Source: Roseburia hominis (GTDB lineage: Bacteria; Bacillota; Clostridia; Lachnospirales; Lachnospiraceae). From it: DNA of 33,868 nucleotides. The stretch lies in NCBI GenBank assembly GCA_021771815.1, contig JAETOE010000037.1, forward strand, positions 1 to 33,868. Reading direction: 5' to 3'. Under the pieces are notes generated by a model that made no database searches, was not told the origin of the DNA, and saw only the letters and a list, made by a program, of their open reading frames with translations. Positions 23,765-33,168 of the stretch are shown one piece after another. A program made the translations under genes and the position numbers. Numbering within the stretch: the stretch's first letter is position 1; each line of letters starts with the position of its first letter.

Positions 23765-23826
23765 CGGGATGTGGCGCCTGTACCATAGAGGTACTTGGTC
23801 TTGAGGTGCATCTTGCAATAGACTGT

Positions 23827-23864
23827 TTAAACCCTTATCTGTTCTAAAACAAAACTGATCTTTC
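23827..23864 (-). pseudogene. Remnant of a second DUF3990 gene (C-terminal scrap)
   Basis: 38 bases match the 3' part of the intact DUF3990 gene (24341-24378) at 35 positions. In one minus-strand frame the scrap reads KDQFCFRTDKGLNS, against KDQFCFRTDKGLKS in the intact gene. The rest of the gene is absent, so this is a decayed duplicate. Confidence 0.7.
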
Positions 23865-23918
23865 GATTTTACAGCATTTACAGTCTCATTTATTTGTCGA
23901 GTGATTTCATCGTCGGGA
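23865..23918 (+). repeat. 54-bp direct repeat, left copy
   Basis: About 82% identical to 25396-25449, same orientation, sharing the end ttcatcgtcggga. The two copies flank the DUF3791/DUF3990 module as the outer pair of nested repeats. Confidence 0.7.
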
Positions 23919-24035
23919 GCTTAATACCTTGCATTTTACTGCTTTTTACACCTTTTTATACCTTATCATTCCTGTAATCATTCAGCATCCCCTTTTTTAT
24001 ATCATGTCACAAATTTTTACTATATGCTGACCTTT

Positions 24036-24056
24036 GGGCGTAAATCGGGCGTATGG
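24036..24056 (+). repeat. 21-bp direct repeat, left copy (GGGCGTA array)
   Basis: Matches 25339-25359 at 19 of 21 bases, same orientation. It is part of a local array in which GGGCGTA occurs three times with 11-bp spacing (24036-24064). The two copies form the inner pair around the module. Confidence 0.65.
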
Positions 24057-24066
24057 TGGGCGTATG

Positions 24067-24309
24067 TCATTCTGAATCTGTTTGAGTTTTTTCCTTCTTA
24101 TACATGTCTGCAATATATGATGGACCATTCCACCATAGTTTTGATGATTCATCATATAACAAGGCTCCCGTTTTGGACGAAACAAAATCTTTTAACGCCA
24201 CGCTTGGTTCCAGTTTCAAATCTTTTACCAATTCTTCGACCACCAGCGTAACCGTTACATCCACCGCAAATTTCTTCTGTTCGTCTGTAACATCCTTTAA
24301 TTTTTCCAT
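24067..24309 (-). CDS. 80-aa protein, third gene of the DUF3791-DUF3990 module
   Basis: Small soluble protein: TDEQKKFAVDVTVTLVVEEL at the start, a conserved-looking SSKTGALLYDESSKLWW block, then NGPSYIADMY. No membrane segment or known DNA-binding motif is obvious. It overlaps the DUF3990 gene by 13 bases, so the two are translationally coupled. I have the impression that similar small proteins accompany DUF3990 proteins in other Lachnospiraceae, but I cannot confirm this here. It could be an antitoxin or accessory part; the role is inference. AT-rich compared with the flagellar region. Confidence 0.7.
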   Translation of the reverse strand: MEKLKDVTDEQKKFAVDVTVTLVVEELVKDLKLEPSVALKDFVSSKTGALLYDESSKLWWNGPSYIADMYKKEKTQTDSE

Positions 24310-24863
24310 ATCCGCTCACTCTCTTCAAATGACAGGGATTTTAAGCCCTTATCTGTTCTAAAGCAAAACTGGTCTTTCAAGCGTTCGGGAATTAATCTGC
24401 TGATGCACAAACGATCTGCTTCCTCACTACCGATTGTGCCGTAAGCCCCAACCAGATAGGTCAGAATCGTAACATTTGTTGCATCATCCGCAATCTTTCC
24501 GGCTATCACGTCATACCGCTTCATTTCTTCAACCACTGCCGGAAATGCGTCTGCCTTTCTATGCCCTACAACACAATGCAGCCAATCAGCATCCGCATCA
24601 CGGAAAATATAATCAGCTATTTCGGCACTTTGATGGTAACGGAATACTGAAACCACTCCATACCCTTGCTCCCCATCTATTGTTCCCTGCGCCTTTGCTT
24701 TTTTCAAGGAAGTGTCGATAAACTTCTCTGCCTGATCCTTGGATGATGTCACATAAAAACCTTTTCCAAAATCTTTGAAATCCGCGCATTTTGCTAAATC
24801 CGGTTGTCTTACTTCACAATAGCTTCCATGGTAAAGAAGCATGCCATCGGACAATTCAAGCAT
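24297..24863 (-). CDS. DUF3990-like protein, ADP-ribosyltransferase-fold, possible toxin
   Basis: 188 residues. The N-terminal LLYHGSYCEVRQPDL (H12) and DFGKGFYVTSSKDQAEKFI (residues ~31-49) match DUF3990, a family in the ADP-ribosyltransferase superfamily; in that fold these segments line the NAD pocket. The C-terminal RLKDQFCFRTDKGLKSL supplies the last core strand. I infer NAD-dependent modification of an unknown target. It overlaps the DUF3791 gene upstream by 8 bases and the 80-aa gene downstream by 13. ATG 24863 follows AAGGGGG. The tight three-gene layout is like a toxin-antitoxin or defence module. Confidence 0.78.
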   Translation of the reverse strand: MLELSDGMLLYHGSYCEVRQPDLAKCADFKDFGKGFYVTSSKDQAEKFIDTSLKKAKAQGTIDGEQGYGVVSVFRYHQSAEIADYIFRDADADWLHCVVGHRKADAFPAVVEEMKRYDVIAGKIADDATNVTILTYLVGAYGTIGSEEADRLCISRLIPERLKDQFCFRTDKGLKSLSFEESERIWKN

Positions 24864-25080
24864 TCAAATTCGCCCCCTTATTTTTCAGCAGAGTTTTGAT
24901 TTCATCGAACACCGCATAATCACCTTCCATATGAAAAACGCCATAGCACTCTTCAATAAATTTAAGGATGCTATACTTATCAAACAGCTCATTTACTTTT
25001 TGAATCGGCATATGCCATTCTTCTGAGGCGAGACGTAGTAACCGAACCTGCATAAAAACAATTTCAGATTTCTCGCTCAT
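24856..25080 (-). CDS. DUF3791-like small protein, possible antitoxin
   Basis: 74 residues, helical: EIVFMQVRLLRLASEEWHMP, then IQKVNELFDKYSILKFIEEC and YGVFHMEGDYAVFDEIKTLL. Size and pattern (helix, kinked Y/F-rich middle, FHMEGDYAVFDEI-like end) fit DUF3791, which commonly precedes DUF3990 genes. ATG 25080 follows AAAGGGGA. It is the first gene of the operon, served by a promoter at 25149-25177. Its first position and small size suit an antitoxin, which is inference. Confidence 0.75.
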   Translation of the reverse strand: MSEKSEIVFMQVRLLRLASEEWHMPIQKVNELFDKYSILKFIEECYGVFHMEGDYAVFDEIKTLLKNKGANLNA

Positions 25081-25148
25081 ATCAGCATCCCCTTTCCATA
25101 TTATTCTAATCAGATTTTTATCTGTTATGTCTGGCTTTTGTAAGAATT

Positions 25149-25177
25149 ATTCTAACATAAAATACTTACCCTTTCAA
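25149..25177 (-). promoter_or_regulatory. Promoter of the DUF3791-DUF3990 operon
   Basis: Minus strand TTGAAA (25177-25172), 17-base spacer, TAGAAT (25154-25149). This puts the transcript start about 60 bases before the first ATG. Confidence 0.6.
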
Positions 25178-25253
25178 TGAGCATGCTTTTCTTTTGGGAG
25201 GTGTTATTGTCTTCTTCAATTTTCCTCAGAAACGACCATTTTAGATAGCAAAA

Positions 25254-25298
25254 ACCCGACTGACACGTTTCATTTTTCAGAAACAATCAGTCGGTTTT
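25254..25298. terminator. Bidirectional hairpin terminator upstream of the module
   Basis: Outer stem ccgactga/tcagtcgg (25256-25263, 25287-25294) and inner stem gtttc/gaaac. It is followed by TTTT on the plus strand and by GGGTTTTTG on the minus strand, so it can shield the module promoter from transcription coming from the integrase side. Confidence 0.65.
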
Positions 25299-25338
25299 CA
25301 TCTTAATTTTTATAAGTTTTTATATCTTTTTTAAATTT

Positions 25339-25359
25339 GGTCGTAAATTGGGCGTATGG
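25339..25359 (+). repeat. 21-bp direct repeat, right copy
   Basis: 19/21 identical to 24036-24056, same orientation. Minus-strand reading gives TPNLRPNLKKI then a stop, similar to Pro/Asn-rich tails of some phage-type integrases; that resemblance is only a hint. Confidence 0.6.
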
Positions 25360-25395
25360 GCGAATTTTTCGCCTCATCTCAATTCCATCTCCGTT

Positions 25396-25449
25396 GATTT
25401 TACTGCGTTTGCAGACCCATTTACTTATCAAGTGACTTCATCGTCGGGA
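25396..25449 (+). repeat. 54-bp direct repeat, right copy
   Basis: Partner of 23865-23918 (about 82% identical). In the minus strand both copies end a short frame with PTMKSLDK and a stop; similarity continues past the stop, so it is a DNA repeat rather than just a protein motif. Confidence 0.7.
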
Positions 25450-25619: not shown

Positions 25620-26855
25620 CTAAAATACATCAAGATTGCGTGATAAATTTTCTATTGCTTCCTGTTTCTTCATGTCAGTGACTTCGGCATATATGTCCAT
25701 CGTTGTTTCAATATTAGCGTGTCCCATGATTGCCTGTATCACTTTCACATTTGTTTCCTTCTCGCAGAACCTTGTACAAAAGGTATGCCTTAAATGGTGG
25801 CATGAGAAGTGAGGTATTATGACTGGCTGCCTCTTTTCCTTTTTAGCATTTAACACTTCCTCTGCATTGTACGATTCGTATATTCGCTTGATTGCCCTGT
25901 TCACAGCTTGAGGATTATGAAGGTTTCCAAACCGATTGCTAAAAATAAAGCCTGTCATTCCGTCAATCACCGTAGTATTGAAACCTTCTTCTTTCTGTTC
26001 GCTGTATTCCTCTTGGAACGCTTCATATACTGCGTCCATCATTGGAATGGTGCGAATACCCGCTTCTGTTTTCGGGAGGGATACTCCAAACTCACATTTT
26101 GTTGTGTCGGTTCGCCGGGGATAATATGTAACACTATGGTTTATACTGATTATCCTCTTTTCAAAATCTATGTCCTCCCACCTCAATCCGATTATTTCGC
26201 CAATCCTGCACCCCGTACCTAATAGCACTGTAAAAAATGGTGTCCAATGGCAATATACCGGACTTTTAGCTGTGTAGTCCATAAAAGCTCTCTGCTGCTC
26301 CAGCGTAAGGGCATGGCGCACACCATGATTTTTCCCCGGTTTTTTCTTAATTTGAGCCATCACTCCATCGCTCGGATTATTTCTGATGATGTCATCTCTC
26401 ACTGCAAGCTGGAATGTCGGGTGGAGAACGGTGTGGATTGTTTCAAGCGTGTTTATCTGCAATCCTTTTTCATTTATCAGATGATAATAGAAATACAGCA
26501 CATCTGAATACTTTATCTCTCCAATTTTTCTTTTTCCGAATTCGTCCCTCACAAAACGGTCATACATGTAAACGTAATTCGTATAGGTTGTCCGCCTTAA
26601 CTCTGTCTTGGTAGTAATATACCTGTCAAATACAAAATTCAGGTCAGCGTTACCTGCCGCATATACATCCAGACCGTCGAGCTGGTCTTTCATCAGTTGC
26701 TTTTCTTTTTCTCTAAGCCCTACTAAATCATTCGCATATATATACCGCCTTTTCCCATAAGGATCAGTATAAGTGTACATATATGACTTATCCTTGCGCT
26801 GGATTTCTCCCTTTCGTAAAGCCCTCCCTCTATGGTCTTTTCTTGCTTTTGCCAT
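25620..26855 (-). CDS. int: Tyrosine integrase of a Tn916/Tn1549-type conjugative element
   Basis: 411 residues. An N-terminal arm-binding domain (RRYIYANDLVGLREKEKQL, about 1-60) is followed by a SAM-like core-binding domain and the catalytic domain. Catalytic residues are visible: R217 (GTGCRIGEI), K262 (LPKTEAGIR), H353/R356 (HHLRHTF), H379 (MGHANIETT) and nucleophile Y389 (MDIYAEV). It excises and integrates the element by strand exchange. ATG 26855 follows AAAGGAG. The RHH gene lies 42 bases upstream under a shared promoter. The gene points outwards to the element's left end, the usual layout. It appears intact. Confidence 0.96.
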   Translation of the reverse strand: MAKARKDHRGRALRKGEIQRKDKSYMYTYTDPYGKRRYIYANDLVGLREKEKQLMKDQLDGLDVYAAGNADLNFVFDRYITTKTELRRTTYTNYVYMYDRFVRDEFGKRKIGEIKYSDVLYFYYHLINEKGLQINTLETIHTVLHPTFQLAVRDDIIRNNPSDGVMAQIKKKPGKNHGVRHALTLEQQRAFMDYTAKSPVYCHWTPFFTVLLGTGCRIGEIIGLRWEDIDFEKRIISINHSVTYYPRRTDTTKCEFGVSLPKTEAGIRTIPMMDAVYEAFQEEYSEQKEEGFNTTVIDGMTGFIFSNRFGNLHNPQAVNRAIKRIYESYNAEEVLNAKKEKRQPVIIPHFSCHHLRHTFCTRFCEKETNVKVIQAIMGHANIETTMDIYAEVTDMKKQEAIENLSRNLDVF

Positions 26856-27801: not shown

Positions 27802-28050
27802 TTATACCGCTTCAAATGCCAATATCTTCGTAATCAGCTTTGTTTCAAGCCTCCGGCGTAGCGTTTCATCAACACAAAAATGCAGCCGCCCACTCTCGTC
27901 ATACATTTTCCGGGTGGACAAAGTAATTATGTATCCCTCATAATGCTTCAAAACTGCGTTGATTGCCATTACATCACCTTCTGATGCTGCCTTTATGATA
28001 TGGAAAGGCAGCAAATTCTTTTCTTCCCTACTCTTACATCTCTTTTTCAT
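27802..28050 (-). CDS. Tn916 Orf8-like helix-turn-helix protein
   Basis: 82 residues. LPFHIIKAASEGDVMAINAV followed by LKHYEGYIITLSTRK is the typical start of the small HTH proteins that pair with the Orf7-type sigma factor in Tn916-family elements. The C-terminal half is basic (DETLRRRLETKLITKILAFE). It overlaps the sigma gene by 17 bases and is cotranscribed with it. In Tn916 the pair is needed to transcribe int/xis functions; the role here is by analogy. Confidence 0.8.
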   Translation of the reverse strand: MKKRCKSREEKNLLPFHIIKAASEGDVMAINAVLKHYEGYIITLSTRKMYDESGRLHFCVDETLRRRLETKLITKILAFEAV

Positions 28051-28474
28051 CTGCTTTTTCCTCCATAATCTTTCTCAAAATCTCAAGTGAGCGTGTCCGG
28101 TGTTCGTGGATCGTACTGCGTACAAGGTTCATTTCCCTTGCTATATCCGCATCGCTCATTTCCAGAAAATACGAAAGCAGTATTACATTCCGCTTCCGTT
28201 CCGAAAGTGCCTGCAACGCTTCCGCAATTAGGGCGTCCTTTACTTCAATGTCATAGCCATACACTGTAAAATGACTGTTCTCCACTCCATACTCATCCAT
28301 AACAAACAACTGGTTCAGCTCCTTTTCAGACAGTTCAGAAAACATGGCTTCATGCTCCCTGCGGTAATCCATGTGCCGGTAATAGTTAATCGCTTCACCT
28401 TTCAGCGACATCTGGCACAGGCGGTCAAAGCGATGCCTGATTGTCAGTTCATCATGGCAAGAAGGTTTCTTCAT
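28034..28474 (-). CDS. Tn916 Orf7-like RNA polymerase sigma factor (sigma-70 region 4)
   Basis: 146 residues. The last third is a sigma region 4 HTH: LSERKRNVILLSYFLEMSDA, then DIAREMNLVRSTIHEHRTRS. The N-terminal part (HRFDRLCQMSLKGEAINYYR) is a reduced region 2-like segment. It matches the small sigma proteins of Tn916-type elements that drive the recombination genes. ATG 28474 follows GGAGGTG. It lies on the left-arm transcript upstream of the Orf8-like gene. Confidence 0.88.
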   Translation of the reverse strand: MKKPSCHDELTIRHRFDRLCQMSLKGEAINYYRHMDYRREHEAMFSELSEKELNQLFVMDEYGVENSHFTVYGYDIEVKDALIAEALQALSERKRNVILLSYFLEMSDADIAREMNLVRSTIHEHRTRSLEILRKIMEEKADEKEM

Positions 28475-28828
28475 ACGAGTTCACCTCCTCCCCCGTTGTG
28501 ACGTGACAAAGGCATACGCCTTTTCCCTTTCCGTTGTATCTGCCAAATAGCAATAGGCTAATGTTCGGGTGGGAGTAAAAATTTTTGAAAAATTTATATA
28601 AAAAACGCCCGAACAGGCTCAATGCCCATTGGACGTTATTCATATCTGTTATTCTGTTTTCTCCACAAACTGCGAGCGTGTATAGTTCACTCTTTAAGGT
28701 ATATTCTGCTTCACTTCCAGTAAAACACCTTATAAAAGAACCTTCCCACGCCAATAGACGGACAGGTTCCCGAAGTCAAAAAAATATCCCTCAGACCGTT
28801 CAGAACACATAAATTCCCCTAAACGTAC

Positions 28829-28894
28829 CCAAAGGATAAAAACCACGCAAAAAAACCTTTGGATACTGCGTTTTTTTATATGCAATATCCAAAG
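28829..28894 (+). promoter_or_regulatory. Attenuator-like competing hairpins
   Basis: ccaaagg (28829-28835) can pair with cctttgg (28856-28862). The same middle segment, as ctttggata (28857-28865), can pair with tatccaaag (28886-28894). A seven-T run (28871-28877) lies inside the second hairpin. Mutually exclusive pairing around a T-tract is the form of an attenuator; function is not shown. Confidence 0.4.
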
Positions 28895-28946
28895 TCATTC
28901 TATTTTATTGTGTATTATGCCCCTCTGATAAAGTGAATTATTAGTG

Positions 28947-28964
28947 CATTTTAAAAGTAAAATG
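28947..28964. promoter_or_regulatory. Operator-like dyad upstream of the XRE gene
   Basis: cattttaaaagtaaaatg: 7-bp arms with a 4-base centre, 32 bases before the start codon. It is likely the site of the XRE repressor itself. Confidence 0.45.
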
Positions 28965-28995
28965 TGCAATATACACTATACATGGAGGTGCATAT

Positions 28996-29343
28996 ATGGC
29001 AAGAAAAAAGAAAATTGACAAGGAAATGGGACTTCGTCTGAAGCAGGCTAGGACTGAACAAAAACTGACCTATGAAGAACTGGCTGAAAAATCCGGCGTT
29101 TCCTCACGCTATATCAAGGAAATCGAAAATCATGGAAACGTGCCAAGCCTTGAAAAGCTGGGGCAGCTCATACGAGCCTTACATATTTCCGCCGATCCGT
29201 TTTTTTATCCAACTGTCCCGGCAGACAACCTCGACTACCAGCGGCTGTTGGTTTACCTGTCACAATGTACAGAAGAACAGATTACAACAATTCTCGCTAT
29301 TGTGGAAGCCTATCTTCGGACATATAAAAATTTTTCAAAGTAA
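28996..29343 (+). CDS. XRE-family transcriptional regulator (Tn916 Orf9-like)
   Basis: 115 residues with an XRE helix-turn-helix at about 12-66: LKQARTEQKLTYEELAEKSG, VSSRYIKEIENHGNVPSLEK. The C-terminal 45 residues are helical (YLSQCTEEQITTILAIVEAY). ATG 28996 follows GGAGGTG. It lies between the two divergent arms of the element, the place of the Orf9-type repressor of Tn916-like elements, and has a palindrome just upstream for autoregulation. Confidence 0.88.
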   Translation: MARKKKIDKEMGLRLKQARTEQKLTYEELAEKSGVSSRYIKEIENHGNVPSLEKLGQLIRALHISADPFFYPTVPADNLDYQRLLVYLSQCTEEQITTILAIVEAYLRTYKNFSK

Positions 29344-29377
29344 ATCCACTCCCTCTCCTATCTCTTTTCTAAAACAA

Positions 29378-29399
29378 AGGCGGCCACCCTTAGCCGCCT
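29378..29399 (+). terminator. Hairpin after the XRE gene
   Basis: Stem aggcggc/gccgcct with an 8-base loop, 35 bases after the XRE stop. The T-run after it is weak, so termination is uncertain. Confidence 0.4.
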
Positions 29400-29675
29400 A
29401 ATTACCTCCTTCCTCTGCAAAACTGTGGCTTGTTTTGCTGTACAGAACGCTTCTTTTTAAGGAAGCAGAATATGTCATCATTTGTCATTTCTTCTCAATG
29501 TAATAACTGCATGGCATATCAAGCCAAATACAAGAGAAAAACAGCCACCGCCAAATAGTGATGCTCCCCACGGTAGCAGTAACTTGCGGAAAGTAACAAA
29601 AGGCAAGTAAATACAAGAAGAAAGGCAACCGCTATCCCTTATTATATCAACAACTAAATAGAGCATAGAAAAATA

Positions 29676-29707
29676 AGACGTTCAAACATGAGCGTCTATT
29701 TTTTTAC
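29676..29707 (+). terminator. Intrinsic terminator upstream of the initiator gene
   Basis: Nine-bp stem agacgttca/tgagcgtct (one G-U pair) with loop aaca, followed by ATTTTTTT. It lies about 30 bases before the GTG start of the initiator gene, so it could also attenuate the transfer arm. Confidence 0.75.
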
Positions 29708-29736
29708 CCAAATTTCAGACGAAAGGGGCTGATAAC

Positions 29737-30657
29737 GTGGCAGTATTCCGAGTGGAAAAAAACAGGGACTACACCGTTATGTCAAACCACCACCTACGCA
29801 ATGCTGACCTGTCCCTAAAATCAAAGGGGCTGCTTTCACAAATGCTATCGTTGCCCGAAGAATGGGACTATACCCTAAAGGGACTTTCCCAAATCAACCG
29901 TGAGGGCATAGACGCTATCCGGGAAGCAATACGGGAACTGGAACGGGCGGGATATGTGACCCGTACAAGGGTACGGAACGAAAAAGGACAGTTGGGGGCG
30001 GCTGATTATGTGATACATGAATTTCCAGTACCGCCCAAGCCTACATTGGAAAATCCAACACAGGACAAGCCTATATCGGAAAATCCAACATTGGAAAACC
30101 CTATGCAGGAAAATCCAACGCAATTAAATAAAGAACTATTAAATACAAAATTATCAAATACGGATTTATTAAATACCCATTCCATTCCTATCCTTTCCAC
30201 TCCCTTAACAGAGGGAACGGCTACGCCGCAGGAACGGAAAGGAGACGGCTACACCAACATGGACGCAGTACGGGCTTATGAGGAAGTCATAAAGGACAAT
30301 ATCGAATACCGCTATCTGATACAGGACAGCAACATTGACAAGGGTATGCTTGACGAGATTGTTTCCCTCATGCTTGAAACCGTCTGCACCCGCCGCAAAG
30401 TGATACGCATTGCCGGGGACGACTACCCCGCAGAGCTTGTGAAGTCCAAGTTTATGAAACTGAACAGCAGCCATATCCAGTTTGTGATTGACTGTATGCA
30501 CCAAAACACCACCAAGATACGCAACATCAAGAAATATCTGCTTGCGGTTCTTTTTAACGCACCAAACACCATTGACAGCTATTATACCGCCCTTGTCGCT
30601 CACGATATGGCACAGGGCGTATTTTTATCGCAGGAACAGGAGGACGACAGCTTATGA
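29737..30657 (+). CDS. HTH/DUF6017-type replication-initiator-like protein of the element
   Basis: 306 residues. The N-terminus (VFRVEKNRDYTVMSNHHLRN, SLKSKGLLSQMLSLPEEWDY) is a winged-helix domain like those of phage and plasmid initiators. A repetitive linker (~105-135) has about six 5-residue units of the type P-T-x-E-N. The C-terminal domain (~170-300, VRAYEEVIKDNIEYRYL and FVIDCMHQNTTKIRNIKKYL) matches DUF6017-type proteins at this position in Tn1549-like elements. It may help autonomous replication of the excised circle; that is by analogy. GTG start behind AAAGGGG. It overlaps the DUF5348 gene by four bases (ATGA). Confidence 0.82.
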   Translation: MAVFRVEKNRDYTVMSNHHLRNADLSLKSKGLLSQMLSLPEEWDYTLKGLSQINREGIDAIREAIRELERAGYVTRTRVRNEKGQLGAADYVIHEFPVPPKPTLENPTQDKPISENPTLENPMQENPTQLNKELLNTKLSNTDLLNTHSIPILSTPLTEGTATPQERKGDGYTNMDAVRAYEEVIKDNIEYRYLIQDSNIDKGMLDEIVSLMLETVCTRRKVIRIAGDDYPAELVKSKFMKLNSSHIQFVIDCMHQNTTKIRNIKKYLLAVLFNAPNTIDSYYTALVAHDMAQGVFLSQEQEDDSL

Positions 30658-30881
30658 AACAGGGAGCTTTGATTTATGACAGGGAAAGCGGACGCTATGA
30701 CATTCGCTTTGGACTGGACGATTACAACGGCGGCTTGCATTGCGGCGAATGTTTTGACGTATTCGCAGGCGGCAAATGGAAGCCGACACGCATTGAAATG
30801 AGTACCGGGCGGGAATGGTATCTTGTCGGTATCAAGACGGACGTACTGGACGGCTTGCGTGTACGGGTACATAACAGATAA
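30654..30881 (+). CDS. DUF5348-type small protein
   Basis: 75 residues: MKQGALIYDRESGRYDIRFG, then NGGLHCGECFDVFAGGKWKP and GREWYLVGI. This beta-rich pattern with a GLHCGECFDV core fits DUF5348, a small protein regularly found between the initiator-like gene and pcfB in Tn1549-like elements. Function unknown. The ATG overlaps the preceding stop, so it is translationally coupled. Confidence 0.75.
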   Translation: MKQGALIYDRESGRYDIRFGLDDYNGGLHCGECFDVFAGGKWKPTRIEMSTGREWYLVGIKTDVLDGLRVRVHNR

Positions 30882-30928
30882 CCGGGCGGCTGCCCTGCAC
30901 CACCCCAAGAAAGGAGGAATGACAGCCC

Positions 30929-31405
30929 ATGCAGGAACAGATCAACGAAAAGACCGTTGCTATCTCAATCAAGACGGCGAAGCTGACCGCCGAAGTCTTA
31001 CAGAAAGCCATAAAAAAGCTGCTTGACGCAAAGAAGCACAAAGCACCGAAGATATACAAAGGCAAACAGACATTAAAGCACCTTATGAAGCAGAACACGG
31101 GCGTTTCCAGTATGGAAATCACGGACGCTAACATAAAGGCGTTTGAACCCATAGCCAAGAAATACGGGCTTGATTACAGCCTAAAGAAAGTAAAAGGCGA
31201 AGAACCGCCCCGCTACCTTGTCTTTTTCAAGGGGCGGGACGTGGACGTTATGACGGAAGCCTTTAAGGAGTTTGCCGCCAAGCAGCTAAACAAAGAGAAA
31301 AAGCCGTCCATACGCAAAATGTTAGCCGCTTTCCGGGAAAAGGCAAAGCAGATGAACCAAAGCAGGCAGAAAGAGAAAAACAAGGACAGGGGGCGGGAAA
31401 GATGA
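30929..31405 (+). CDS. pcfB: PcfB family conjugation accessory protein (DUF3801)
   Basis: 158 residues, basic and helical. EKTVAISIKTAKLTAEVLQK and the KHLMKQNTGVSSMEITDANI block are typical of PcfB, followed by the YGLDYSLKKVKGEEPPRYLV and FFKGRDVDVMTEAFKEF strands and a Lys/Arg/Gln-rich tail. In enterococcal pCF10, PcfB is needed for transfer and works with the coupling protein PcfC. It precedes the VirD4/PcfC gene, overlapping it by four bases. ATG 30929 follows AAAGGAGG. Confidence 0.88.
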   Translation: MQEQINEKTVAISIKTAKLTAEVLQKAIKKLLDAKKHKAPKIYKGKQTLKHLMKQNTGVSSMEITDANIKAFEPIAKKYGLDYSLKKVKGEEPPRYLVFFKGRDVDVMTEAFKEFAAKQLNKEKKPSIRKMLAAFREKAKQMNQSRQKEKNKDRGRER

Positions 31406-33168
31406 AGCCAAACATCAAAAAGCTGCTTATCCTCAATGCGCCGTACCTGCTCTTTGTATGGCTCTTTATGAAAGCAGGCGAAGCGTTCCGGCTCTCTCCG
31501 GGGGCTGACCTCTCCGGGAAGCTCCTACACATCATGGAGGGCGTGACCGCCGCCTTTGAAAGCCCCCTGCCAAGCCTTAACGGGCAGGATTTTGTGATAG
31601 GCGTTGCCGGGGCGGTTATCCTGCGGATCGCCGTCTACATGAAAGGCAAGAACGCCAAGAAATACCGCAAGGGCGTTGAGTACGGCTCTGCAAGGTGGGG
31701 GAACGCAAAGGACATTGAACCCTACGTTGACCCGGACTTTTACAACAACGTCCTGCTGACACAGACAGAACGCCTTACCATGAACAGCCGACCCAAAAGC
31801 CCCAAGTACGCAAGGAATAAAAACGTGTTAGTCATAGGCGGTTCGGGAAGCGGCAAGACCCGCTTTTTCGTCAAGCCAAACCTCATGCAAATGCACAGTT
31901 CGTATTGCGTGACCGACCCAAAAGGCACAATCCTCATAGAGTGCGGAAAGCTCTTAGACAGGGGCGGCTATAAGATAAAAGTGCTTAACACAATCAATTT
32001 CAAAAAGAGTATGCACTACAACCCCTTTGCGTACCTGCACAGCGAAAAAGACATATTAAAACTTGTCAACACAATCATGGTAAACACCAAAGGCGAGGGC
32101 GAAAAGTCGTCCGAAGATTTTTGGACGAAAGCCGAAAAGCTCTACTACACCGCACTGATCGGCTATATCTACTACGAAGCCCCGGAGGAAGAAAAAAATT
32201 TCACAACCTTACTTGACATGATAAACGCAAGCGAAGCGAGGGAGGACGACGAGGACTTTAAGAACCCGGTAGACCTCATGTTTGACCGACTGGAAGAAAA
32301 AGACCCGGAACACTTTGCCGTAAAGCAGTATAAAAAGTACAAACTTGCGGCGGGCAAGACGGCTAAATCTATCTTGATTTCATGCGGCGCACGTTTAGCA
32401 CCCTTTGACATTAAAGAGCTGCGGGAGCTTATGGAAACGGACGATTTGGAGCTTGACACGTTGGGGGACAGGAAAACCGCCCTCTTTGTCATTATCTCCG
32501 ACACGGACGACACTTTCAATTTCATTGTCGCCATGATGTACACGCAGCTTTTCAACCTCTTATGTGACAAGGCTGATGATGTGTATGGCGGCAGGCTTCC
32601 CGTACACGTCCGCTGCCTGCTTGACGAAGTGGCAAATATCGGACAGATACCCAAACTGGAAAAGCTGATCGCCACCATACGAAGCCGGGAAATATCCGCC
32701 TGCCTTATCTTGCAGGCACAGAGCCAGTTAAAAGCCATATACAAGGACAACGCCGACACGATTGTAGGGAATTGCGACACGACCCTTTTCTTAGGCGGCA
32801 AGGAGAAAACCACGCTCAAGGAAATGTCGGAGCTTTTGGGGAAAGAAACCATAGACTTATACAATACATCAGAGAACCGGGGGCGGGAAAAGACCTACGG
32901 CTTGAATTATCAGAAATTAGGCAAGGAGCTTATGAGCCAAGACGAAATTTCCGTCATGGACGGCGGCAAATGTATCTTGCAGGTAAGGGGCGCACGCCCC
33001 TTTTTCAGTGACAAGTTCGACATTACCAAGCACCCAAGATATAAATTCCTTTCCGATTTTGACAAGAAAAACGAATTTGATATTGAAAAATATCTGAAAC
33101 GCCGCCCGGCAGCTATCAAGCCGGAAGAACCCTTTGACCTCTACGAGATAGACGGGGGCGATTTATAA
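31402..33168 (+). CDS. VirD4/TraG/PcfC-type conjugative coupling ATPase
   Basis: 588 residues. Two N-terminal membrane helices (LLILNAPYLLFVWLFMKAG; VIGVAGAVILRIAVYM, residues ~8-80) anchor a cytosolic ATPase. Walker A is GGSGSGKTR (~146-154) and Walker B is CLLDEVANIG (~405-414). The TrwB-like MHYNPFAYLHSEKDI and CLILQAQSQLKAIY (arginine/sensor region) are present. The protein brings the relaxase-DNA complex to the mating channel. The ATG overlaps pcfB. Complete and apparently functional. Confidence 0.95.
   Translation: MKPNIKKLLILNAPYLLFVWLFMKAGEAFRLSPGADLSGKLLHIMEGVTAAFESPLPSLNGQDFVIGVAGAVILRIAVYMKGKNAKKYRKGVEYGSARWGNAKDIEPYVDPDFYNNVLLTQTERLTMNSRPKSPKYARNKNVLVIGGSGSGKTRFFVKPNLMQMHSSYCVTDPKGTILIECGKLLDRGGYKIKVLNTINFKKSMHYNPFAYLHSEKDILKLVNTIMVNTKGEGEKSSEDFWTKAEKLYYTALIGYIYYEAPEEEKNFTTLLDMINASEAREDDEDFKNPVDLMFDRLEEKDPEHFAVKQYKKYKLAAGKTAKSILISCGARLAPFDIKELRELMETDDLELDTLGDRKTALFVIISDTDDTFNFIVAMMYTQLFNLLCDKADDVYGGRLPVHVRCLLDEVANIGQIPKLEKLIATIRSREISACLILQAQSQLKAIYKDNADTIVGNCDTTLFLGGKEKTTLKEMSELLGKETIDLYNTSENRGREKTYGLNYQKLGKELMSQDEISVMDGGKCILQVRGARPFFSDKFDITKHPRYKFLSDFDKKNEFDIEKYLKRRPAAIKPEEPFDLYEIDGGDL

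Follow-up and report, generated by a model that had tools for sequence, protein, structure and literature searches.

A three-gene DUF3791-DUF3990-ORF80 module of Roseburia hominis as a candidate toxin-antitoxin system with a proposed split antitoxin

Gene content and predicted folds

A 33,868-nt stretch of Roseburia hominis DNA (contig JAETOE010000037.1 of assembly GCA_021771815.1; hereafter the window, whose numbering is used throughout) carries three small genes on the minus strand. A DUF3791 gene (24856-25080; 74 amino acids (aa)) precedes a DUF3990 gene (24297-24863; 188 aa), which is followed by an open reading frame (ORF) of 80 aa, termed ORF80 (24067-24309). We consider it likely that these genes constitute a type II-like toxin-antitoxin module, probably directed against phages, in which a DUF3990 ADP-ribosyltransferase (ART) is held by DUF3791 and ORF80 acting as the first and second lobe of one antitoxin. 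The ORF coordinates confirm overlaps of 8 nt (DUF3791/DUF3990) and 13 nt (DUF3990/ORF80), as noted in an initial annotation made from the DNA sequence. Its naming of the first two genes likewise holds, as both proteins exceed the Pfam cut-offs, DUF3791 in PF12668 with an expectation value (E) of 8.1e-14, and DUF3990 in PF13151 with E 8.8e-32 and 110.3 bits vs a curated cut-off of 32.2. Pfam returned no family for ORF80 at E<=1 and no helix-turn-helix (HTH) family for either small protein. Within the same genome, the DUF3791 model matches two places, each adjoining DUF3990.

The AlphaFold2 model of the DUF3990 protein (mean predicted local distance difference test score (pLDDT) 94.9, predicted template modelling score 0.89) was compared with the PDB, and ART folds ranked at the top, the solved folds of RES-Xre, ParST, MbcTA and NatRT being among the best scorers. 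A PDB sequence search with the same protein gave a best E of 0.12, which was taken as chance. Residues H12, Y37 and Q165, the last assigned as third position by strand order in the model, form a triad of the H-Y-[E/D/Q] type. In the non-gap rows of 212 relatives these residues are conserved in 201/204, 208/209 and 205/206 cases, respectively, so that the triad is kept in more than 98% of the relatives covering each site. Together, the fold match and the conserved triad support a predicted ART fold for DUF3990, in line with the superfamily proposed by the annotation, which had suggested structure prediction as a check. The model of ORF80 (pLDDT 91.4) is all-helical, with four helices in a compact arrangement. 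Its fold search gave 35 matches within a limit of E 10, the best at E 4.1, and thus nothing at E<=0.001; SecB-like or known-antitoxin rows are absent from these weak matches, which is uninformative by itself.

Partner genes and a candidate two-lobed antitoxin

We collected 229 DUF3990 ORFs in 224 loci, 80 of them from a scan of genome contigs and the rest from the window's genome and from genome searches, and classified their neighbours with iterated profiles run on the neighbour set. Both an upstream and a short downstream partner accompany 95 of the 229 ORFs, and gene overlaps occur in 95/95 and 73/95 of these three-gene loci. A long downstream partner alone was found for 72 ORFs, four of them with NADAR, and a short downstream partner alone for 30, four with NADAR in the locus; the latter class includes four DUF3791-DUF3990 fusions, where the upstream partner counts as part of the toxin ORF. 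The remainder comprises five ORFs with the upstream partner alone, one with an upstream and a long partner, and 26 with none; this last class contains gene fragments, ORFs at contig ends, ORFs whose partners may have escaped recognition, and nine solitary genes that form a clade. Pairing with the small genes, for which the annotation had proposed a neighbourhood survey, is frequent.

The majority of the long partners belong to one of two sets. An ORF80-like half precedes a DUF3791-like half in 43 sequences and follows it in 26, these placements carrying probabilities of 20-81%. The 148-aa protein of locus L109 is unambiguous on its own, as here the ORF80-type model PDC-M13B covers residues 1-77 (E 7.9e-24) and DUF3791 residues 88-147 (E 1.6e-23). 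The four fusions of DUF3791 to DUF3990 belong to one clade, and ORF80 is fused to DUF3990 in a single protein (P0064), the sole case with more than 71% query coverage among the 120 matches listed. An HTH forms the end of the long partner in 21 loci, and HTH_3 exceeds the cut-off in the two checked by Pfam. In view of these fusions and long partners, a physical complex of the three proteins would be the natural reading.

The relationship between DUF3791 and ORF80 was further assessed by profile comparison of groups built from single-pass hits, which avoids bridging by iteration (94 upstream DUF3791 proteins, 70 of the ORF80 type and 21 resembling the third gene of L001, another copy in the same genome). 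ORF80 vs the L001 type scored 97.7%, the L001 type vs DUF3791 96.5%, and ORF80 vs DUF3791 directly 62.8%; the best of 60 column-shuffled controls per pair reached 3.3, 6.8 and 1.9%, respectively. Moreover, the Pfam DUF3791 model exceeds its 25-bit cut-off on the gene directly downstream of a listed DUF3990 in four genomes (G029, G126, G101 and G106; 26.3-27.9 bits), and a DUF3791 profile built in this analysis matches 22 short downstream proteins at E<1e-3, mostly of the L001 type, one of its matches (L047) belonging to the window's own toxin clade. The idea that ORF80 is an unrelated protein was set aside, since it is linked to DUF3791 through the third gene of the L001 type and since DUF3791 models match some third genes.

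Several points limit this reading. With smaller, window-centred alignments the direct ORF80-DUF3791 comparison fell to 14%. Both this comparison and the fold scores temper our overall confidence slightly. In addition, the catalogue entry described below and the restriction-gene context of some relatives are not fully independent, because the catalogue's models were partly chosen by embedding. Homology of ORF80 to DUF3791 is thus likely, not proven, the direct link being weak. The protein that the annotation had called unknown still lacks a Pfam family, but it is probably a distant DUF3791 relative and matches models of a candidate system; correspondingly, the antidote, previously sought in one neighbour, would be split between two related neighbours.

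All three window proteins match PDC-M13 candidate-defence models of PADLOC-DB 2.0, and their genes are adjacent; the assignment is one by model matches, as distinct from a call by PADLOC's own system rule (cut-offs, synteny). The DUF3791 protein matches the PDC-M13A/C models (E 6.7e-7 to 5.9e-4), the DUF3990 protein PDC-M13A (E 1.8e-33) and ORF80 the PDC-M13B/C models (E 5.4e-11 to 6.6e-6). Of the other copies in this genome, L001 matches PDC-M13 and L002 PDC-M42. The three-gene form, which to the knowledge of the annotation lacked a detailed description, is therefore already catalogued by homology as a PADLOC candidate; a functional study of DUF3990, DUF3791 or PDC-M10/M13/M42 was not found in the portions of the literature searched, which did not extend to bioRxiv preprints. 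According to PMC12988326, which cites the preprint of Payne et al. 2024 as the source, the PDC list was made by guilt-by-embedding, that is, from genes embedded in defence systems.

In the model library, PDC-M10, PDC-M13 and PDC-M42 stand as three separate undescribed systems, whereas here they appear to share one toxin family and a split or fused, probably homologous two-lobed antitoxin. A fused 151-aa partner matches PDC-M10B, and the PDC-M10B-type proteins of L103 and L135 weakly match the models of both lobes. Judged from these sequence comparisons, the three look like one ART toxin-antitoxin family. A more far-reaching version, which we put forward tentatively and rate at somewhat less than even chances, is a single immune family of guanine-modifying DUF3990 ARTs, in which the lobes are ancient duplicates that were split, fused in both orders or fused to the toxin, with HTH or NADAR added per branch and with two points at which infection could be sensed. 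What would be new here is that the antitoxin is split into two lobes and that three candidate systems are united. Such an antitoxin of two related lobes, occurring in several fused forms, would provide a natural experiment on antitoxin evolution.

The association was also surveyed from the side of the small genes. ORF80 has 264 relatives at E<=0.001. In 150 sampled genomes of the window's family, 86 of which contain DUF3990, at least 58 of 78 DUF3791 places and at least 31 of 42 ORF80 places have a same-strand DUF3990 place no more than 700 bp away; 97 of 150 DUF3990 places among those listed have neither short partner by the DUF3791 and ORF80 models, many of them carrying the long form. DUF3791/ORF80-type pairs with no listed DUF3990 within 700 bp were observed at G134:C26:22408-22790, G134:C8:21100-21593, G103:C25:103400-103944, G080:C11:84453-84878, G074:C30:4718-5106 and G090:C225:3190-3578. 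These are possible orphan antitoxins, and some may have a DUF3990 beyond those listed.

Functional contexts and rival explanations

In the proposed mechanism, free DUF3990 would be an ADP-ribosyltransferase of the H-Y-[E/D/Q] class that depends on nicotinamide adenine dinucleotide and stops growth or phage production. The toxin, encoded between DUF3791 and ORF80 in an overlapping operon, would be bound by these small, probably homologous helical proteins as a two-lobed antitoxin, and the enzyme would be released when one lobe is lost or titrated, as might happen during infection. Relatives have both lobes in a single polypeptide, whose order varies and which in some cases includes an HTH with a possible autoregulatory role. 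The analysis shows the genes, the predicted fold, the conserved triad, the gene association, the fusions, the HTH, and the NADAR and restriction-gene contexts; we infer from these that the module is catalytic, toxic and anti-phage, that its proteins bind directly, and what its target and trigger are. This would supply a concrete, testable mechanism for a candidate system that is common in gut bacteria but uncharacterised.

The NADAR branches suggest a substrate. NADAR lies directly downstream of the partner gene in 7 of the 224 loci, which fall into two distant clades and include three near-identical ones, and upstream in an eighth locus (L074); the NADAR of L002, the single one scored in this way, has a Pfam E of 2.1e-47. 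As NADAR enzymes strip ADP-ribose from guanine in DNA and RNA (PMC11543638 and PMC11833690), guanine bases in DNA or RNA would be the likely acceptor in those branches. In this respect the relatives resemble DarTG1 (DarT1-NADAR), an ART toxin beside NADAR (PMC11543638). The window module differs from it in lacking NADAR: none is present in the window, where the DUF3990 gene is flanked by DUF3791 and ORF80 and then by integrase and CRP-type genes, and neutralisation would proceed by binding, not by erasing.

Likewise, RES-Xre, ParST, MbcTA and NatRT share with DUF3990 the high-scoring folds and the HTH-bearing partners seen in some DUF3990 relatives. The Xre-type antitoxins of RES systems bind DNA, as a PDB entry title also states. 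These systems belong to another ART family and usually consist of two genes, in contrast to the three found here; the relation between the antitoxins was compared through Pfam.

Of the 224 loci, 10 have Hsd-like ORFs in the 1.5-5 kb of flanking DNA that was fetched, and the contact of toxins with type I restriction genes extends over several toxin clades. The toxin overlaps or almost touches an Hsd-like ORF in L190, L187, L099 and L102. At L002, the extended form of the toxin ORF shares an overlap with an HsdS-like piece of 52 aa. The proposed defence context is thus present in some relatives, whereas the window's own copy lacks a restriction-gene neighbour. On a Moraxella osloensis plasmid, the single one examined (L253, NZ_CP069435.1, 3460-7209), hsdM, DUF3990, an 83-aa ORF, DUF3791 and hsdS follow one another with mostly overlapping ends. 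In the window's own genome, the PDC-M42 version (G000:C20; L227 2562-9487, and L002) consists of DUF3990, a 141-aa partner and NADAR, and its neighbours are HsdS-like pieces, a 1063-aa HsdR-like ORF and a tyrosine recombinase, the latter two named by eye. This arrangement suggests that an ART module is embedded in a type I restriction locus capable of phase variation.

Defence is not the only role that such a module could fulfil. Relatives were detected in 71 plasmid records, including a mobilizable plasmid of 7.7 kb, and the window's copy lies beside an integrase element between two attachment (att)-like repeats, as would befit an addiction or stability module that keeps plasmids or integrated elements. 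This is a possibility to which we assign clearly less than even weight, since relatives touch or sit among type I restriction genes in several toxin clades, notwithstanding the partial dependence of the PDC list; moreover, the two roles are not mutually exclusive. To a similarly minor degree we reckon with unequal partners: a single small protein would act as antitoxin and be stabilised by the other, a chaperone or a sensor of phage, in the manner of CmdA and CmdC for CmdT. According to PMC11618068, CmdTAC is an anti-phage, three-part ART system in which CmdT alone is non-toxic and CmdA needs CmdC. The likeness comprises three genes, the H-Y-[E,D,Q] triad and two accessory proteins. Furthermore, DUF3791 and ORF80 conserve different residues, and 30 of the 229 toxins have only the short downstream partner recognised. 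As to a SecB-like subunit, ORF80 has no Pfam family and DUF3791 belongs to its own. On the other hand, the chaperone CmdC resembles SecB and a long C-terminal stretch of CmdA is unstructured (PMC11618068), whereas the window's partners are small and mutually related-looking. The apparent homology of the two small genes and their fusion in both orders in relatives fit one two-lobed unit.

The remaining readings concern the enzyme itself. The well-supported clade of nine solitary DUF3990 genes (L181, L183, L184, L191, L195, L197, L202, L203 and L206) lies among ordinary-looking genes, for example Maf- and HAD-like ORFs named by eye, and may have another role. It would agree with an ART that is regulatory and not toxic, has a host protein or metabolite as its substrate and uses the small proteins as adaptors. 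This reading is improbable, given that toxin-antitoxin modules typically show the features found here, namely HTH-bearing partners, gene overlaps, a patchy distribution and copies in decay. Least probable of all, and very much so, is a catalytically dead ART-fold protein that serves as a binding partner only. Q instead of E at the third triad position, found in 205/206 non-gap rows, would be in keeping with it; yet CmdT homologues have H-Y-[E,D,Q] and CmdT is active (PMC11618068, as above), and both the near-invariance of all three residues and the NADAR neighbours of relatives speak for catalysis and a real ADP-ribose product.

Spread of the proposed toxin and surroundings of the module in the window

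In a quick tree built from 209 toxin sequences, supported by the Shimodaira-Hasegawa-like approximate likelihood ratio test only and with 92 of 206 inner branches open, the window's toxin falls into a supported set of 60 rows with records from Bacillota, Spirochaetota, Fibrobacterota, Chloroflexota and Actinomycetota, and 54 of these 60 keep the split arrangement. The arrangement labels need 27 changes vs a mean of 109 for shuffled labels. Transfer between phyla thus seems to involve the module as a whole. Stop codons in several relatives are taken as signs of decayed copies. PDC-M13 is listed with 3324 counts in 6530 rumen genomes and metagenome-assembled genomes (PMC13356809). A scan of viral contigs with the 141-aa partner protein confirmed no relative; in Geobacillus virus E3 (L254, 2971-3579) a DUF3990-like protein is encoded two genes after an integrase-like gene.

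The region 23827..25449 delimited by the initial annotation contains the module, but its ends also take in repeats and a piece of a DUF3990 gene copy. The promoter assigned to the module exists as a site on the minus strand (25149-25177; TTGAAA-17-TAGAAT, 10/12, with TG before the second hexamer as in an extended -10); such sites are no commoner than chance, seven having been found in the region vs 6.3 expected. The presumed terminator corresponds to a real hairpin with A-rich and T-rich arms (25250-25299, minus strand) between the end of the integrase element and the module, whose minus-strand fold has a z of -5.85 (0/200 shuffles as good), but a simple terminator scan does not list it.

A Tn916-type integrase gene with its stop codon at 25620 adjoins the module. 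In two genomes whose integrases are 97% and 96% identical to it, the DNA matches the window at about 90% identity, but this homology does not reach below 25420 and 25438. The element's end was therefore placed inside D1a (25396-25449, minus strand), a 54-nt repeat whose second, att-like copy D1b (23865-23918, minus strand) is an 83% direct repeat of it. Each copy contains the close of a short frame, and the last eight residues ahead of the stop are identical in the two. Beyond D1b lies the 3' fragment of a second DUF3990 gene (23820-23864, minus strand), which is 92% identical over 39 nt (23826-23864) to the intact gene and 89% over 44 nt to the L005 gene; the frame across it matches the DUF3990 profile at E<=1e-3. 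By these alignments the element with the integrase appears to stop just short of the module, which lies between D1a and D1b and is followed by the decayed DUF3990 piece. The idea that it is cargo of the adjoining element was set aside, because homology with the elements carrying 96-97% identical integrases ends before the module. An integrase match in the flank fetched, and a distant one at that, was seen at just two of the remaining DUF3990 loci, L064 and L099. D1 was also considered as a conserved regulatory element and rejected, as it is absent from the other DUF3990 loci checked. Seven same-genus loci with the CRP-type neighbour gene contain no DUF3990 within the fetched flanks, consistent with insertion here.

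Direct repeats flank the module at 25396-25449, 23865-23918, 24033-24067 and 25336-25359 and look like integrase attachment and arm sites, so that the module between the att-like sites may be carried as a passenger. Farther along, 28034-33168 contains sigma-70 region 4 and HTH genes and a TraG-like ORF identified by eye. The mobile element seems to continue as far as the end of the contig, its other boundary lying outside the window.
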